From: Buxus sempervirens
Taxonomy: Eukaryota > Streptophyta > Magnoliopsida > Buxales > Buxaceae
Length of the DNA stretch: 64,000 nt
Assembly: GCA_947561395.2 (NCBI GenBank)
Contig: OX387182.1
Span: 35,829,949-35,893,948 of the forward strand
Reading direction: 5' to 3'
Position 1 is the stretch's first letter. Every line of letters begins with the position of its first letter. Below, one piece after another: positions 3,411-25,602 of this stretch. The position numbers and the translations under genes are program-made. Below the pieces are notes generated by a model. The model had not been told where the DNA came from. It was given only the letters and a program-made list of their open reading frames with translations, and did not search any database.

Positions 3411-3751
3411 AGTAAGCAGCAAACATGCATGTAGAGAAACAGTTTATGCAGTTTTTATAACATCATAATGATATTCAAAATTATATAGCACTAAATGCAA
3501 ACCAAAACAGTTCAATCGGATATAAAAGAAATTCCAATTCAAATATCTCAATCAAATCACCAAATACGAACAAATACTGTAAACATGTCTTGTTAGGACT
3601 CGTGGTTAGCATGTCTGTAAATTAGATTAATGACCAGTATCCATTGCCACCTACACGACTTACAGAGAGAAGCCTAGCTAGGGACATCTCAGCAAGCGGA
3701 GTACCCACGTATGGGCTGGCAAGTAGTCAACCAAACCAAGGATCCAGACTA

Positions 3752-4169
3752 AGTGGGATTCCCCACCCACTGCTTGATGAATCGCAAGGACTCCCGCCGG
3801 TTCCCCGCGACGGGGGGTTGCCGCAGTCCTCTGTTCCCCGAGAAGGCCTCACTGATTCCCCACAGTGGAATGCTATATGGATAAGGCAATTAAAGCTAAC
3901 AAGCCAATACCAACGCACTAATTAGACTCACTGTGGATCCACACCAAGAACAACGTCCAATTAGACGACTCACAAATTCAAACCAAACCAATCGAATCAA
4001 GGAATAAATCCAATGCTTTAAACCAAAGCCAAGTGGAATTCCCCATCCACTATTAAATCAAACGAGGTCAAGTGGAATTCCCCATCCACTATTAAATCAA
4101 CCGGGACCAAGTGGAATTCCCCATCCACTACCAGTCCATACCAAGGGCAAGTGGAATTCCCCATCCACT
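3752..4169 (-). repeat. Stem-loop array with invariant octaloop, LTR C1
   Basis: Eight stem-loops share an 8-nt loop that reads RTTCCCCR on the plus strand (YGGGGAAY in the sense of the LTR). Loops lie at 3758-3765, 3800-3807, 3833-3840, 3855-3862, 4038-4045, 4077-4084, 4116-4123 and 4156-4163. Stems differ: AGTGGG/CCCACT, CCCG/CGGG with an internal mismatch, CCTCT/AGAAGG, CACTG/CAGTG, and four copies of AGTGGA/TCCACT. The last four form a roughly 40-bp tandem repeat. It is in the predicted transcribed part of the LTR. Confidence 0.85.
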
Positions 4170-4804
4170 GCCAATAAAACCATAGGCCAAAGCCTTGCCA
4201 AATCGTATAAGGGTTTTTCAACATTGCTTTCATAAATCCAAGCCAAATCAAAACGAAGGTCACAAAATCCTCAAAACGCATTTTCGATGAGTGAGTTCAT
4301 CTTAAAAATCCCAAATAAGTCACCATACCAAAATTCAATGGATTCCGAGACAAAAAGTTTTGGACCTCAAAAATATTCCAAGTCTGGTTGAAAACGTTGA
4401 CTTTTCGGTGTCGAATTTTTCTAGACAAATCTACAAGGAGTTTGGGGCTCAATTCCTATTTGTAGTCTATTGGAGGGTATACAAATCATCTAGAATTTTC
4501 TGGGCTTCTGAATCACTCATTTGGATATCAAACTCAAAAAAGTGGTCTTATTTGAAAATCAGGAAAACTGGAAATTTAGGCACAAACTGGAAAGTTGACT
4601 TTTTATTGGTTGGGAATTGGGCCCTGGGAGTATTTTTATTGGTTCCAAATAGGGGGTAAAACCTTATTTACATGTAAAGACTTAAGTAAATGGAGCAATA
4701 AATACACAGGACATTTACTTAAATGTCTTTCATGTAATAAGGGAGCTATGCGAGAAGCTTGGGTTGTTTGACAAAGGGTTGGAGAGAAAAAGGATGAACA
4801 ACTC

Positions 4805-5689: not shown

Positions 5690-6590
5690 TACCTAAGGCA
5701 TACCCCTGGTATTAAGTGGGGTACCTTAGTGTTAAATGGGGTGTTTGCCTTAGCCACTTCAAAAGGCATGCTTTAGGGATGCTTGGGAGGTGTACCTCAG
5801 TTAACACAGAAGGGTACCTCAGTTATATGAGGGGTACTTTAGTTATTTGAGGAGGTACCTTGATGTTTCAAGGGATTTACCTTAGTCATTCTAAGGAGTA
5901 AACTTTGAATAAGCTTAGGAGGGTGTACCTCAGATATATTGAGGAGGGGTACCTTGATTATTGAGGGGTGTACTTTAGTTATACAGGGGGTACCTTTAGG
6001 AAATACAAGGAGGTGTACCCTTGGTAACATGATGGGTGTACCTTAATAATATAAGAGGGTTACCTAAGTTATAGAATGGGTGTACCTTAGCTACAAGAGG
6101 GGGTACCTTAGCTATATAAGGGGTTATACCTTAGGGAAAACAGTGGGGGTTACCTTACTTATATAAGGGTTACTTTAGTGAGACAAAGGGGGTACTTTGG
6201 CTATATAGGGGGTGTACCCTAGGTAAAACAGTGGGGGTACCTTACTTATATGAGTGGAGTAACTCTAGGAAATTCAAGGGGTACTTTAGGTATACATGTG
6301 AGGTACCTTAGGCAATGCAAGGGCATACCTTAGGTAAACACAGGGGTACCTTAGGCAATTAAGGTAGGGTACCTTAGGGATACAAGCGGGGTACCTTAGG
6401 TATAACTGGGGAGTACTTTAAGTAACACTTGGGTGGTACCTTGGGTAATACTTGGGTATACTTTGAGTAATACATTCGGGTACTTTGGGTAATACATGGG
6501 TACTTTAGTAGTATTTGGGAGGGTACCTTGGGTATATTTTGGGGTACCATGGGTATACTTGGGAATTACTCTAGGTACACATTAGTCCAA
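5690..6590. repeat. Degenerate GGTACC-core minisatellite in U3 of LTR C1
   Basis: About 900 bp of degenerate units of roughly 22-28 bp, each with a GGTACC, GGTACT or AGTACC core followed by TTAG and a variable T/A/G-rich spacer. I estimate 30-40 units. The array ends about 70 bp from the TATA box of the LTR, on its upstream side, so it occupies the place of a promoter-proximal enhancer. The same array is in LTR C2. Confidence 0.85.
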
Positions 6591-12696: not shown

Positions 12697-14185
12697 CATA
12701 GCAGCAACCTCTGGCTGGGGGTTGGCTTCTTTGGCTACTTTCCAGCTTCCTTCCCCCAGTTTTTCCCATCCGAACCCTTCCTCCTTCAACCCCTTTTGCC
12801 CCCCATTACCTCACCACACCACCTCAAGGGTTTCCACCTTTGTTCCCTTCTTCTTCTTCACTTTCTTAAACAAGCCAAAGGAGCCTAGTTGCTGTTGGGG
12901 AGAAGTGGGTGCACCAAGAAGGCCACCAGCTGCTATACCACCTCAAGGGAGTATCACCACCTCGCCTAGGAGTGCAAGAACTATTGGGTAAGGCTTCTCA
13001 TCATATTTTATCATGCATATGTTAAAATTAGAATTTTCTAAGATTTTTCCTACATTTGTTTCCCTCTTGGCATGAGTTTGTCTCCATGAATGTTATGCAT
13101 GCATTTGGTGCTCTTCTCATGGCATGAAGCTACCACAAGTAGGAGGATCACGTAGGGTTCCTTGGGAGTAGGAGAACCCATTTTTCATGTCATTCTAACC
13201 CGCTGTTTTGAGTACTTTTGGGAGGAGAATGTTCCTCCCAGTCTAATCTCATGTATCCCCCTATATAACCCCCCTTCTCTTTCCCTTCTCTAAAGGTTTT
13301 ATGTTGAGCAGTAAGCCTAGGCTTAGATTTCGCCGGATGTTCTTTTTCCTTTGCTTTTTTTTAGTTTGTACATGTGTAGTGACATGCATGCTAGGATCGT
13401 ATGAGCATGCCTTGTTTGCTATTTTTACATGCTTGATAAATTTCTCATGCATGCAAGCTACCAGGCTCTCCGGGTGTCTTTTTTTCTTTTACTGATTACT
13501 TGTTGCTGCTGGGGGTGCTTGGTATGTCTTCCTTCACCATTGGTAAGATATTTGAAGTATAAAGGCATGTCCCCTTGGTCCTTACCCCCTTTGCCATGAT
13601 GAGTAGGGATTGCTGCTGGGAATAGCAACAAGTCCGTATGCTACTGCTGTTCCCAGCAGATTTGTAACCCCGTGCTGTCCCCCTTGAGCATTACACCTAA
13701 TCCCCTTTACCTCATTTTACTCTCCAAGCATAGCCTATTAACCAACCGCCTTGGTCCTTTCATCCATCCATGTTAATTTCTTGCTTTCAAATAAGAAGGT
13801 GTGTTTTTCCATTTCATGTAACTTGCTGTGTTCATGCCAATACCATGCAACCCCCATGAGTGTGAACCTTCCACCCCCACTCGCATGATATCCCCCATTT
13901 ATGATCGTTTTCCCCTTATATTTACAGCATGTTTCACTTATTCGCACGAGCATGAATTGTTTCCCTTGGTGATAACATCGCCTGTAAAACCCCGACCCGG
14001 ATTATACTTTAATTATTAAGTTTAATTACTTAAAGTGTGATTATTAGGCTAATTAAGTACTTGTGTTATGAAGGTGAGGTGGATGTGGATCAAGCTTAAG
14101 GAATTAGGGGAAATCAAATTGATCTCTATTGAAGGTTATTAAGGTAAGCTTAGATAATGTTATTTCTCAATTTCAATTGGCTAAG

Positions 14186-15090
14186 GTACCCTCCAATTAG
14201 TCTAAGCGTACCTAAAGTACCTTCAGAATATACACAAGGTACCTCCCAAGTGTACCCAAATTATCCCCTAAGAGTACCTAAAGTAACTCTTAAGAATGCC
14301 CAAGGTACCTCTCAAGTGTACCTTAAGTGTCTCCCAAGAATACCCAAATAACCTCTTAAGTATACCCAAGATACTTCATTTCTATACTTAAGGTACCCCC
14401 AAGTATTACCCAAAGTACCCCAAAGTATTACCCAAAGTACACCCAAGTATTACCCAAGGTACCCCACTGTTTCACCTAAGGTATCCTACTTTAATTGCCT
14501 AAGGTACCCCTGCGTTTGCCTAAGGTATCCTCTTGTGCTTGCCTAAGGTACCCTTGTGTTTACCTAAGGTATCCTCTTGTGTTTGCCTAAGGTACCCCTG
14601 TGTTTACCTAAGGTATCCACTTGTGATTGCCTAAGGTACCCCACATGAATACCTAAAGTACCCCCTAATTATACCTAAGGTACCTCATTTGTATTGTCTA
14701 AGGTATCTCTTTATTTTAACTAAGGTACCCTACTATCTTACTTGAAGTACCCCTTGTTTAGCTAAGGTACATTCTCTTATACAGCTAGAGGTACCCCCTT
14801 TATATAATTAAAGTACCTCCAACATACCTAAGGTACATCCTCTATATTACCTAGGGTACACCCCTTGTATTTCCTAGAGGTACTCCTCTCAATAACACTA
14901 AGGTACTCCCACTTTACACCAGGGTATCCCATCTTGTATAACTAAAGTACCCCAAGCACCCTTAGAGTATGCCTTTTGAAATGGCTAAGGAAAAACCCCT
15001 TAAAACACCTAGGTACCCCTGCAAATAACACTAAGGTACCCTCTACTTATCACAAGGTACACCCATACTTAACACTAAGGTACCCCCTAG
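14186..15090. repeat. Degenerate GGTACC-core minisatellite in U3 of LTR C2
   Basis: About 900 bp of CTAAGGTACCCC-type units spaced about 22-28 bp apart, with roughly 35 cores. Same array as at 5690-6590, ending about 60 bp before the TATA box. Confidence 0.87.
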
Positions 15091-15150
15091 GGTTTTAGTT
15101 GACTAAAAGCTTTGTTTAGGGGCAGATTTGAAAGACCAAAAGCTTGAGCA

Positions 15151-15158
15151 TATAAAAG
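15151..15158 (+). promoter_or_regulatory. TATA box of LTR C2
   Basis: TATAAAAG after the minisatellite; the base context is conserved with C1. Confidence 0.65.
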
Positions 15159-15699
15159 GATGCCCTAATCTCTGTTTTAAGTATTTTGAGAACACTCCTT
15201 CTTGTCTTGGTCGTATAGAACAAGAGGGGAAGTGTGGGAGCTTGCTTAAAGCTTCAAGAGGAAGAAGAAGAAGGAGAGAAGAGCTTGAAGAGAAGTTTTG
15301 CTTCTCCATTAGCATGTAAGTAGCAAACCCTTTCAAAACAAAATGAATTACAAAATTCGTATTCTCTCTCTAGGGTTTGATTTATTTGAAGGAATGATCT
15401 TGCATGTTGCTATTCACTTCTAAAATTCGTAGGTTTTGATTGTATGATGATCTTGGTTATTTTTCTATTGATTTGCCATGGACTTCCAGCTCTATTGATC
15501 CTATTTTATATTAGGGTTTGAGATTTGTGTCTTGAATGAGGTTTCATGTGTTTGATTTGTGTTCATGTAGATTTGAGATGAATCTTTGTTTCAAAAGATG
15601 TTTTTAAGTGTGTTGGCATGTTTTGTGATCACCTACTTTGATGTTGGAAAGGTTAAAAATGATTTCTATGAGTTGTGTGTTGAAAATAGCCAAAATTTT

Positions 15700-15965
15700 G
15701 TAAGAACCCGAGCCGGCGATTAATCCTGGAGATTGGCGATTAATCCTGAGCAAAGACCCCAAAAAAAATCAGATTCTGTTAAAGTAAATCGCGAATCAGG
15801 ATTAATCGCCCAGGGCTAATCGCGACCTTAGCGCGCGAACGTTGAACTTACTGCGCGCGCATTGGCCTTGATTTACCCTTTAGCGCGCGAACTCTAAACT
15901 TCAACGCGCGAACGTTAACCCCTGTCTTTACCCCAACACCCGAACGTTGAAGCCTGTTTTTGAGA
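15700..15965. repeat. CpG-rich self-complementary block in LTR C2
   Basis: GCGATTAATCCTG repeats, GCGCGCGAACG and ACTGCGCGCGCATTGG motifs. Counterpart of 4805-5070. Confidence 0.7.
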
Positions 15966-16610
15966 ACTCTTAAACCTTTTTCTCCTCAACCCTCTTCCAA
16001 ACAACCCAAGGCTCCGGCAGAGCACCCTTATTTCCATGGAAGACATTTAAGTAAATGTCTTGTGTATTTATTGCTCCATTTACTTAAGTCTTTACATGTA
16101 AATAAGGTTTTACCCCTCATTTGGAACTAATCAAAATACTCTCAAGGCCCAATTCCCAACCAATAAAAAGTCAACTTTCCAGTTTGTGCCTAAATTTCCA
16201 GTTTTCCCGATTTTCAAATAAGACCACTTTTTGAGTTTGATATCCAAATGAATGATTCAGAAGCCCAGAAAATTCTAGATGATTTGTATACCCTCCAATA
16301 GACTATAACCAGAATTTGAGCTCCAAAATCCTTGTACATTTGTCTAGAAAAATTCGACACCGAAAAGTCAACGTTTTCAACCAGACTTAGAATATTTTTG
16401 AGGTCCAAAACTTTTTGTCTCAGAATCCATTGAATTTTGGTATGGTGACTTATTTGGGATTCCTAAGATCATCCCACTCACTGAAAATGTGTTTTGAGGA
16501 TTTTACGACCTTCGTTTGGATTGGCTTGGATTTATGAAAACAGTGTTGAAAAACTCTTATATGATTCGGCAAGGCTTTTGACTTATGTTGTGATCTGGCG
16601 GTGGATGGGG

Positions 16611-16948
16611 AATTCCACTTGGTTTATGTTGTGATGTGGCGGTGGATGGGGTATTCCACTTGGCCTTGGATTGAACACCGGTTATGGATTTGATTTGATT
16701 GGTTTGTTTTGAGTTGTGAGTCATCTAATTGGACATTGTTCTTAGTGTGGATCCACAGTGAGTCGAGTAGTGTGCTGGTGTTGGCTTGTTAGTGTTAATT
16801 TTCCTTGTCCATGTAGCTTTCCACTGTGGGGAATCAGTGAGGCCCTCTCGGGGAACAGAGGTGCTGCGGCAACCACCCGTCGCGGGGAACCAACGGGAGT
16901 TCTTGTGATTCATATGGTTTGGTTCGGCAGTGGATGGGGCATTCCACT
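16611..16948 (+). repeat. Stem-loop array with invariant octaloop, LTR C2
   Basis: Six stem-loops all have an 8-nt loop of the form YGGGGNAY. They lie at 16611-16628 (GTGGA/TCCAC), 16642-16659 (GTGGA/TCCAC), 16822-16839 (CACTG/CAGTG), 16844-16861 (CCTCT/AGAGG), 16876-16897 (CCCGT/ACGGG with one internal mismatch) and 16929-16948 (AGTGGA/TCCACT). Loops are TGGGGAAT, TGGGGTAT, TGGGGAAT, CGGGGAAC, CGGGGAAC and TGGGGCAT. C1 carries eight such units. The array is about 1.45 kb downstream of the TATA box, so it should be transcribed. Confidence 0.88.
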
Positions 16949-17269
16949 AGCCTTGATTATTACTTTGGTTGTCACTTGCCAACCCATACGTGGGTGCTCT
17001 GCTTGCTGAGATGTCCCTGGCTAGGCTTCTCTCTGTAAGTCGTGTAGGTAGCAAATGGACAGTGGACATTAACCTAATTTATAGACACGCCAACTCACGA
17101 GTCCTAACAAGACATACTTGCAGTATTTGATTGTAATTGCCGAATTGATTTCATATATTATTCGATTGAGATGCTTTGACTTGAGATTTACATTTTATAT
17201 TTGTGAATGTGATCATGATGTTATAAAACTGCATAAACTGTTTCTATCCATGCATGTTTGCTGCTTACT

Positions 17270-17317
17270 GGGACTTTAAGTCTCACGCGTGTTTTGTTTT
17301 ACCGGATTTGTTTTCAG
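17270..17317 (+). promoter_or_regulatory. Hairpin plus polypyrimidine-CAG module, LTR C2
   Basis: GGGAC-TTTAA-GTCTC at 17270-17284, then a T-rich tract ending TTTTCAG at 17317. Layout shared with LTRs D and F. Confidence 0.5.
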
Positions 17318-18118
17318 ATCCTCCTGGTGAGCCACGCATAGAGGGAGATCCAGACTATAGACCCGAGGACTATTACTACTACCCACAGTAGGACTCTCCT
17401 TATGATATTGTATTTTGTTAGTGAGTTGGAAATGGGATGTAAATAATACTTTTGGACCTATACGTTGGGAGATATCTTTTGTATATGTCTGTATATTTGG
17501 GAAAGAGCTTGTGAGCAATTAGATGCCTTAGATGTATTTTGTATTCGGATAGATATCATGTTTTGGAGATTGTAATACAAGAAATCTTTTGTTGGATGGA
17601 AAATTTTTACTTCCTTGCTTCTTTAGCTTATGCACTCTGATAATTACATTGTAATTGCCCAGGAAATTGTGTTTATCAGGTTCTATTGGGCTCATAAGTA
17701 GGTCTCGGGGACGGGTTGGTGCCGTGATAGGGCAGACCCGGATCTGGGGCGCTACATCGCCGGTCTAGGCCTTATAACATGATTGGTTTTGCGATTAACT
17801 TGTTTAGCATGGAATGCATGAGTGTTTGGCTTTGATGGTTGGTTGACCTATGACATGAAATCACGAAAATTGGGGTGTCAAGACCCCCACCTTGCTGCTG
17901 GAATTATAGAAAGGAAGTGAGGAGGGGCAGCAGCCCTAGGCATCTCCTCTTCCCCTTTGATTTTTGCTGGAACACCTCCAAAGGGAAGCCAAACAAGGCT
18001 TCTCCCCAAGTCTGAACCAATGTGGGCCTTATTCGGGGCCCACATGACTAGTAGAAGGCCCTAGGAAGCCCCTGGAAACCACCCCAATGGCCAAAGCCAG
18101 AAAAAGGCTATTTTTGGG

Positions 18119-18185
18119 GTGATCCGGCAACTCAGGCCGGATCACCTATGGCTTGCGTGTATCCGGCAACTAAGGCTGGATACAC
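18119..18185 (+). repeat. Two palindromes in the 3' part of LTR B1
   Basis: GTGATCCGGC/GCCGGATCAC (18119-18145, perfect 10-bp arms, 7-nt centre) and GTGTATCCGGC/GCTGGATACAC (18157-18185). LTR B4 has two dyads at the equivalent place with changed but still self-complementary arms. Confidence 0.75.
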
Positions 18186-18740
18186 ACAGAAATACAATTT
18201 TATGTCTTTTTGGGGTCCCTTGCCGAATTTTGTGATGGTTTGGACCAAACCAAGTGAACCAATAGGGTTCCCGGGCCACCCGGAAACCCAACTTGGGACA
18301 TGGACCGCAGGTCCAACTCGGAATACCCGTGGGCCTTCCAATAGGGCCCACCCCATCAGACTCAGATCACCTAAGTTAAGCAAGATAAAATCAACTAAAG
18401 GGACCCACACCACTCAGGTGGTCCCGACAGACTTAACCTAATGGCATGCTGGATTAGGAATCGGGTGAGAACCAAAGCAAGCTGACTCAAACCAGGGAAC
18501 CCACAGGACCCGTCATCCGACGGGGTGGCCTGGGGTGTCTACGGACTTCCCCAAACCACAATCGAGACCCTACTTAGAATCTCAAGCCGCAGACCAAAGC
18601 CCAAAATAGACTAACTTAGGCATCTAGGTGTCCGCCTGCACCCCATCAGGCGGTGGCGACTTCGAACTTTCCCGTGCCGCGTTTATGATGCACACACAGA
18701 CCTATCTTTTTGAAATAACAAGCCCATAATAAAGAGAATT

Positions 18741-24565: not shown

Positions 24566-25602
24566 CCAGCACGTTTTTAAAATGTTTGGATTTCGAAACT
24601 TTATTCAATTTGATTTATTTAAAGATTTTTATCCGATTTTTTGATTATTTTATTATAAAAACAAGATTCTTTTATTAAAATATTATTAAAAAAATAAAGA
24701 TATTTTTATTAAATGATTATTTTATTTATTTAATTCATTTATTCTGCTTTTTTGCTGCTGTTTTGCCACATGGGCAGCTTTCTTAAAACTTCAACTGTCC
24801 ATAACTTCTCTGTCCGATGTCCGATTTTAGCAAATTTGGTGTTGTTGGAATCGGCTTGGAATCACCTATCCACTGGGATCAAGTTTGACAGCTGAATTGT
24901 GGTCGAGCAAAAAGTCAACTTTTCACTCCCCAAAAGTTTGACCAACTCATAACTTTCTCATCCGGACTCCGATTCCAGCAAACTTAGTTGTGTTGGAACC
25001 GTGTCAAAATGCTCTTTTTAATGAGATGAAGTTTGATGGTCAAATTCACTTGAATCAAAAAGTCAATTTTTTGACCCCCTCAAGGTTTGACTTTTCATTT
25101 TTCTTCAATTTGGGGGTGCAAAATCAGGTGCTAACATTATGTCTTGGCCATAACAGTGATTTGAATTTAGAACCTAGGAGACATGCATGCTTCGGCCATA
25201 AAAGAAAAAAAATGACTATCATATCATTTTTTATCTATTTGATAATTAAACAATACTAATAAAAATCCAGCCATAACATTGATATATCATTTTTTTATGT
25301 GACAATTGAACAACACTTAGAAAGAAAAAAAAAATAATTTCGCCATAACATAACAATGACATGTTTTATATTATTTGACAATCCAACAACATAAAAATAC
25401 TTGATTAAAAATAAACATACAAAAATAGAGAAAAAAACCTGGTATAGGATTGATTTCCCGGAAGCTAATGAGCTCAACTCTAGATGTTCCCTCTTTCCTC
25501 TTGCACAACCTTCTTCCTCCTTTTTTCTCACTTCCCTCTTTGCTTCTCTTTTAGAACTCTCTTCTTTTGATTTTGTTCCCCTTTTGCTCCCAACTTCAAG
25601 CC

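Follow-up and report, generated by a model that had tools for sequence, protein, structure and literature searches.

The nearest described case in plants is that of the palindromic repeats in the LTRs of the Sireviruses (Ty1/copia), clusters of dyad-symmetric motifs (PMC2829016, PMC10760457) which, in the accessible part of the first of these papers, have conserved CGG-CCG arms around a variable centre and lie upstream of the TATA box (PMC2829016). For the Ty3 elements of maize, the accessible part of the second paper reports generally no obvious peak of such structure (PMC10760457). Plant LTRs are also described as carrying quadruplex motifs, plus-strand G-tracts downstream of the promoter with four G-runs at short gaps (PMC3902901, in part). 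Among packaging signals, those of the alphaviruses include stem-loops with GGG tips, several in a row, the number of which had an effect; the same excerpt reports as much evidence against as for the necessity of the signal (PMC5869531). In MMTV, Gag binds a purine loop beginning GGAG with a self-complementary dimerisation site nearby (PMC8096270, in part), and a purine-rich apical loop is likewise found in the HIV psi, which comprises SL1-SL4 (PMC3902901, in part). For Ty1 and Ty3, according to the accessible part of PMC4974528, Gag packages the genomic RNA, the Ty3 nucleocapsid has one CCHC finger, the positions at which Gag binds the RNA of Ty1 or Ty3 lack a precise definition, and these RNAs do not fall into separate pools for translation and packaging; for BARE, separate translated, spliced and packaged RNA pools are described (PMC3735527, in part).

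The array of hairpins described here, from an LTR of Buxus sempervirens, can be compared with these systems as far as the excerpts go. It shares with the Sirevirus repeats the clustering of dyad-symmetric motifs in a plant LTR, but it belongs to a Ty3/gypsy family, its arms vary while its centre is fixed, and it lies downstream of the TATA box; with a Ty3-type reverse transcriptase, differing arms and a position 1.45 kb downstream of the TATA box, it was not assigned to the Sirevirus repeats. Like the alphavirus signal it is a row of stem-loops with G-tract tips, the number of loops varying here; the alphaviruses, in contrast, are unrelated viruses, and here the whole octaloop is nearly fixed, the array lies in an LTR and its role in packaging is putative. 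A purine-rich apical loop is common to the MMTV loop, the HIV psi and our array, which has a conserved 12-nt palindrome between hairpins 2 and 3; our array differs from both in its position within the LTR and upstream of the PBS, and in being repeated on different stems. The family has a Ty3-type Gag in common with Ty3, whereas the encapsidation determinants of Ty1 and Ty3, as described in the excerpt of PMC4974528, include no array like this one. The quadruplex motifs have four closely spaced G-runs, whereas here there is one GGGG per loop and the loop starts are 22-180 nt apart. Among the matches listed by full-text searches of open literature, some of the lists being capped, no title or abstract opening names an array of this form.

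The window, that is, the whole stretch of DNA analysed, is 64,000 nt long (contig OX387182.1, positions 35,829,949 to 35,893,948). Its features are as follows, with coordinates in the window and, in brackets, the basis of the assignment.

13981..17757, + strand: solo LTR C2, which starts TGTAAAACCCCGACCCGG and ends GGGGCGCTACA, with flanks TCGCC / TCGCC (sequence and comparison with C1)
15151..15158, + strand: TATA box TATAAAAG (TATAAAA in 21/21 rows where the place was found; not found in 3/24 rows)
15316..15321, + strand: putative 5' splice site GTAAGT (GTAAGT in 17/22 rows shown, GT in 19/22)
16600..16619, + strand: hairpin 1, GGTGGA-TGGGGAAT-TCCACT (sequence)
16641..16660, + strand: hairpin 2, GGTGGA-TGGGGTAT-TCCACT, tandem copy of hairpin 1 (sequence)
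16746..16768, + strand: conserved block with the 12-nt palindrome TGTGGATCCACA at 16746-16757 (change counts, window scan)
16822..16839, + strand: hairpin 3, CACTG-TGGGGAAT-CAGTG (sequence)
16844..16861, + strand: hairpin 4, CCTCT-CGGGGAAC-AGAGG (sequence)
16876..16897, + strand: hairpin 5, CCCGTCG-CGGGGAAC-CAACGGG, with one C.A mismatch in the window copy C2 (sequence)
16929..16948, + strand: hairpin 6, AGTGGA-TGGGGCAT-TCCACT (sequence)
17307..17317, + strand: putative 3' splice site TTTGTTTTCAG (AG in 22/23 rows shown)
6837-2919, - strand: solo LTR C1, with target duplication TTTCA / TTTCA (sequence and comparison with C2)
3750..4170, - strand: second array, of eight hairpins, in LTR C1 (sequence)

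The two LTRs (C2, 3,777 nt or 3.8 kb; C1, 3,918 nt) are related. Each begins TGTA, finishes TACA and has a 5-bp direct repeat on either side, so that both are solo LTRs. TG...CA ends with a 5-bp target-site duplication, as in Ty3/gypsy LTR retrotransposons, were thus present in both window copies. By eye, the inverted repeat at the termini (13981 and 17757) is extended but imperfect (TGTA..CCCCGACCCGGAT versus TGTAGCGCCCCAGATCCGGGTC). U3 of both LTRs (14200-15090; 5700-6570) consists, upstream of the TATA box, of degenerate TACCCC-bearing repeats about 22 bp long. There was no intact polyprotein near the window LTRs; the 17 ORFs of at least 150 aa in the window all start at 25395 or later. The family was placed from a copy elsewhere in the genome (L132), in which the PBS TGGTATCAGAGC, spotted by eye and presumably of the Met-tRNA type, begins 4 nt past the LTR end. 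This was the one copy with a PBS among 29 non-window copies when the right flank (45 bases after the LTR end) was inspected, and the majority of that series (L112-L141) resemble solo or 3' LTRs. Downstream of the PBS in L132 are gag (Pfam PF03732, 3.7e-18; Ty3_capsid PF19259, 4.5e-10) and then protease and reverse transcriptase (RVP_2, RVT_1), and the best PDB match is the Ty3 Gag-Pol polyprotein (9e-46). Since this one copy with a coding region has PBS, gag, protease and a reverse transcriptase whose best structural relative is Ty3 Gag-Pol, the array-bearing family is Ty3/gypsy, and is placed at that level. A zinc knuckle, CX2CX4HX4C, was seen by eye after gag; the 147-aa piece bearing it had no Pfam match at E 0.001. 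Beyond the reverse transcriptase, where a member of the chromovirus clade Tekay, the placement presumed at first, would have a chromodomain at the end of its integrase, the one internal region read contains no further element frame before an NLR gene. The truncated L132 adjoins this 1,123-aa open frame (L142:10-3381, - strand; Rx_N + NB-ARC + LRR, a CNL-type resistance gene), which was considered as pol and rejected as such. L093 and L094, LTR pieces on one strand of one contig with 8.9 kb between them, are perhaps the two LTRs of one element.

Direct reading of 14500-18500 gives six YGGGGNAY octaloop hairpins in C2 at 16600-16948 on the + strand, as had been predicted; the start proposed for the array, 16611, falls within hairpin 1, and the true start is 16600. 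The octaloops start at 16606, 16647, 16827, 16849, 16883 and 16935, so that successive starts are 41, 180, 22, 34 and 52 nt apart. The four unrelated stem pairs of the original prediction are borne out, hairpins 1, 2 and 6 having one stem in common ((G)GTGGA/TCCAC(T) in hairpins 1 and 2, AGTGGA/TCCACT in hairpin 6) and the others being CACTG/CAGTG, CCTCT/AGAGG and CCCGTCG/CAACGGG. The last of these (hairpin 5) has a stem of 7 pairs in C2 and keeps its octaloop in register despite the C.A mismatch; its most frequent form across copies, CCCGTCG/CGGCGGG, is fully paired when G.U is counted. The last hairpin of C1 has the stem AGTGGG/CCCACT. It had been argued that duplication would copy loop and stem together, and this is what hairpins 1 and 2 show, being a 41-nt tandem duplication, whereas the other stem types are not so explained. 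The first hairpin unit occurs in 2 to 5 tandem copies of 39-41 nt, differing by subfamily (L096, L101-L111, and window 4045-4163 on the - strand).

YGGGGNAY occurs 6 times in the C2 LTR, 5/6 with at least 5 perfect Watson-Crick pairs around it, against 10/3,747 for octamers of any sequence in the same LTR; in C1 it occurs 8 times, 6/8 with at least 5 perfect pairs (8/8 with at least 5 pairs if G.U is allowed), against 15/3,888. Further copies were obtained by a genome search in which the best 40 of about 1,000 candidates were scored per query (947 for one query), so that they are not a random sample. The resulting 101 copies, of which 99 were fetched and 2 are those of the window, with none dropped, were trimmed to pieces of about 440-730 nt each. 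In these pieces 604/612 YGGGGNAY octamers sit in hairpins, taken as having 4 or more of 5 pairs formed, and RTNCCCCR, the loop in reverse complement, has 0 occurrences; the copies were found by similarity to the array, and the presence of arrays in them is therefore unsurprising. Conversely, 439/566 octaloop hairpins with 5 perfect pairs in the 101 copies carry the YGGGGNAY loop. With one loop-core mismatch allowed, the number of hairpins per copy was 7 in 55 copies, 6 in 24, 8 in 12, 5 in 7, 4 in 2 and 9 in 1. A search of 15100-17757 against Rfam gave none at the gathering score and 4 weak matches (E up to 5), none of them over the array.

The copies were aligned with MAFFT, a tree was built with FastTree (midpoint-rooted) from the 444 flank columns that remained after columns filled in 80% of the rows or fewer had been left out, and changes were assigned by parsimony in Python. 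Terminal branches are taken to hold mostly post-insertion decay and internal branches change in lineages still copying themselves; recombination between copies is ignored, and some of the 101 copies may be paired LTRs of one element. The flanks (444 columns, 101 copies) had 997 terminal and 280 internal changes, whereas the loop core GGGG-N-A (positions 2-5 and 7) had 77 terminal and 3 internal changes (p 1.3e-5). Because of this difference, the loop core is held to have been under selection while the family was active, and the claim that the loop matters, to be judged by conservation above that of the flanking LTR, was upheld. Positions 3, 4, 5 and 7 had 51 terminal and 0 internal changes (p 1e-5), and all three internal core changes were G to A at position 2. 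When changes from G only were counted, the ratio of terminal to internal was 423:93 in the flanks and 72:3 in GGGG (p 0.0012); leaving out one hairpin at a time gave p 3.5e-5 to 3.9e-4 for the core; internal changes with at least 3 descendants numbered 2 in the core and 180 in the flanks (p 7e-4); and the first 81 copies alone gave 47:2 against 660:231 (p 1.4e-4). In a random control, 71/20,000 draws of six flank blocks had 3 or fewer internal changes, and 4 of those also had at least 77 terminal changes. Internal change does occur at loop position 6 (27 terminal, 12 internal) and at the loop ends (16:6 and 12:6).

The stem columns, with 182 terminal and 44 internal changes, are as changeable as the flanks (997, 280). 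Changes in the stems ended paired in 18/22 cases on internal branches and 101/191 on terminal ones (p 0.012, 101 copies; 17/19 and 63/113 in the first 81 copies, p 0.005), and when the partners were slid by 1 to 3 columns, the internal ratio of paired to unpaired dropped to 5:26 - 16:15. Without hairpin 5, the ratio was 8:3 internal against 58:53 terminal (p 0.22). That stem pairing matters is thus in agreement with the internal changes, but the effect is weaker than that of the loop and depends largely on hairpin 5; the same holds for the drift of the two arms independently of each other, which had been named as contrary evidence and is not what the internal branches show, a result mainly of hairpin 5. 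States changed on both sides are GC 57/AT 33 at pair 4 of hairpin 5 and AT 89/GC 12 at pair 1 of hairpin 6, and many of the remaining stem pairs are nearly invariant, hence uninformative on covariation. The alignment of the tandem hairpins 1 and 2 between copies is uncertain, GT at pair 6 of hairpin 1 being counted in 27/81 rows and in 3/101 in the later alignment. In hairpins 4 and 5 the two loop ends were CC in 106 cells, TT in 88, TC in 6, CT in 1 and GT in 1 (194/202 like with like), where the cells count copies and not events, which are few; it is as if a like-with-like pyrimidine pair were maintained there. The loop was very probably selected as part of a nucleic-acid hairpin.

Both protein-binding and kissing loops had been proposed for the GGGGAA loops. 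YGGGGNAY is by inspection not self-complementary, and TTCCCC and TGCCCC, the complements for the GGGGAA and GGGGCA loops, are absent from the sense strand of both window LTRs, which tells against kissing. TACCCC, the only one present of the complements searched for, occurs there 14 and 12 times in the two LTRs, most often within the U3 repeats; a general mechanism in which the loops kiss these repeats was considered and rejected on that ground. The better reading is a loop that binds a protein. A fixed loop, exchangeable stems, one orientation and several repeats point to a loop-reading RNA-binding protein. In such a scheme the sense transcript of the Ty3/gypsy family would offer, in the array, a multivalent platform for docking, each unit being a stem of 5-9 pairs, of nearly immaterial sequence, displaying the octaloop Y-GGGG-H-A-Y, so that the loop would be the part recognised and the stem the holder. 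The ligand would most likely be the element's own Gag, via its zinc knuckle, and the array would tag the genomic RNA so that it is packaged into particles. What makes Gag the best candidate is that in alphaviruses packaging signals take the form of arrays with G-tract tips, that the Gag of MMTV binds a purine loop, and that BARE separates its RNA pools; Ty1 and Ty3, however, are said not to separate theirs (PMC4974528). As would suit a packaging signal, the array lies between the TATA box and the LTR end and its loop is conserved; the sense fold is no better than that of shuffles. Most retroviral packaging signals do not lie upstream of the PBS, unlike the array here.

The TATA box at 15151 agrees with the predicted distance of about 1.45 kb to the array. 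A location in the leader RNA, also predicted, applies to the genomic RNA of the family but not to a transcript of this locus, the window copy being a solo LTR. Use of the putative splice sites would give a leader intron of about 2 kb (about 15316-17317) enclosing the whole array, which would thereby be stripped from spliced messages. Should the array lie in R, the 3' UTR would contain it as well, and leader splicing alone would not remove every copy. By eye, the presumed first exon has no start codon save one at its very end in C2. At the putative acceptor, 17317-17391 is a coding-looking stretch, DPPGEPRIEGDPDYRPEDYYYYPQ followed by a stop; YYYYPQ-stop is found in 9/23 rows, and the length changes in other subfamilies. 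That the array is a multivalent protein-docking RNA, most likely a Gag packaging signal and perhaps inside a leader intron, is the reading we favour, and we hold it tentatively, as we infer the protein, its identity as Gag, the packaging, the intron and the sense strand.

The position of the array between a mostly kept GTAAGT and TTTGTTTTCAG would also suit a host RNA-binding protein that, bound to the hairpins, prevents splicing of the leader intron, exports the RNA or regulates how the very long leader is translated. The invariant part is a G-tract, as expected of a binder of the hnRNP H/F type, and the RNA-level evidence is common to this explanation and to docking of Gag. Such G-tract binders, however, favour unstructured RNA, and the paired stems, the A at loop position 7 and the coupled loop ends would be unexplained by them; the splicing itself is putative. 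We consider a host protein of this kind unlikely.

Long-lived G.U states of the sense strand are GT at pair 6 of hairpin 2 (69/101), TG at pair 3 of hairpin 5 (57/101) and TG at pair 4 of hairpin 4 (13/101), against A.C in at most 7 of the 101 copies at any pair. The formal comparison of WC>GT with WC>AC gave 5:2 internal and 73:62 terminal (p 0.46) in 101 copies and p 0.044 in 81 copies; with both directions pooled, it was 14:3 against 92:63 (p 0.07). Folding against shuffled controls, which had been suggested as a check, went against the prediction, the 371-nt sense RNA being no more stable than its shuffles (z 0.15). Some of the hairpins are missing from its minimum-energy fold, whereas that of the antisense shows all six (z -1.61). 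In a 600-nt context, the pair probabilities of the hairpins ranged from 0.00 to 0.99. Single hairpins are predicted at -6 to -16 kcal/mol, and when folded alone 4/7 adopt the plain octaloop, hairpins 4 and 5 and the last C1 hairpin preferring another loop. The sense RNA as the acting strand is thus favoured by evolution (G.U states, single loop orientation) and not by the energy model, and the evidence for it is suggestive. A DNA-level element, that is, dyad sites for a transcription factor or cruciforms like the Sirevirus palindromic repeats, would be compatible with the formal strand tests (p 0.46 and 0.07) and with the sense-strand fold, and dyad-symmetric repeats are common as LTR cis-elements in the accessible parts of PMC2829016 and PMC10760457. 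We regard it as quite improbable, however: a DNA dimer site would show the opposite of arms that differ between hairpins around a fixed centre, the array is far downstream of the TATA box, the loop has a single orientation, and G.T is long-lived whereas A.C never is.

A G-quadruplex, intermolecular or with long loops, that is formed from the GGGG tracts and dimerises or stalls the RNA would account for the conservation of all four G, and the plus-strand motifs of plant LTRs are most frequent some 150 or 1200 bp downstream of the promoter (PMC3902901, in part); it is nevertheless very unlikely, as a quadruplex has no need for stems, for A at position 7 or for coupled loop ends, and the spacing of the loop starts is wide compared with that of a compact quadruplex. 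The intramolecular quadruplex motif (PQS), with four G-runs at short spacing, was rejected for the array, the starts being 41, 180, 22, 34 and 52 nt apart. For the Sirevirus palindromes, a role as structured RNA in setting off or evading small-RNA silencing has been proposed, and clusters of LTR hairpins in maize accompany small RNAs (PMC10760457, in part); here, this is highly improbable, since the stems are short (5-9 pairs), dicing needs no selection on the loop, and an element would be expected to lose structures that silence it. That the array has no function and arose from tandem duplication and chance palindromes is scarcely credible, for although hairpins 1 and 2 and the extra units of other subfamilies are 39-41-nt tandem duplicates, one loop stands on four unrelated stems and its core is under selection (p 1.3e-5).

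A scan of 515 overlapping 12-column windows had its best result at 16754-16765 (44 terminal and 0 internal changes, one-sided p 2.3e-5), which is overlapped by the palindrome TGTGGATCCACA between hairpins 2 and 3; no hairpin-centred window was among the 14 best conserved windows listed. Downstream of the array, 16983-16994 and 17010-17021 are also conserved (38 terminal:1 internal and 28:0). By eye, CCACAGTG in 16746-16768 is complementary to CACTGTGG of hairpin 3. The palindrome block, turned up by scanning, may serve for dimerisation or pair alternatively with the hairpin 3 arm; separate from the loops, the palindrome could be a kissing dimerisation site. Taken at its widest, docking of Gag would make the array an RNA motif of a new kind, in which a U.U or C.C pair (swapped together) closes a GGGGHA loop repeated on interchangeable stems and which would serve as the packaging code of a plant Ty3/gypsy element within a leader intron, splicing parting messenger from genome and the 12-nt palindrome acting as the dimerisation site; in this full form it is possible but rather doubtful. 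LTR retrotransposons make up a large share of plant genomes, yet little is known of the way in which they select their own RNA for packaging. The comparison of internal with terminal branches singles out particular loop bases, few enough to be tested, and this way of setting decay against change in active lineages is applicable to other elements.
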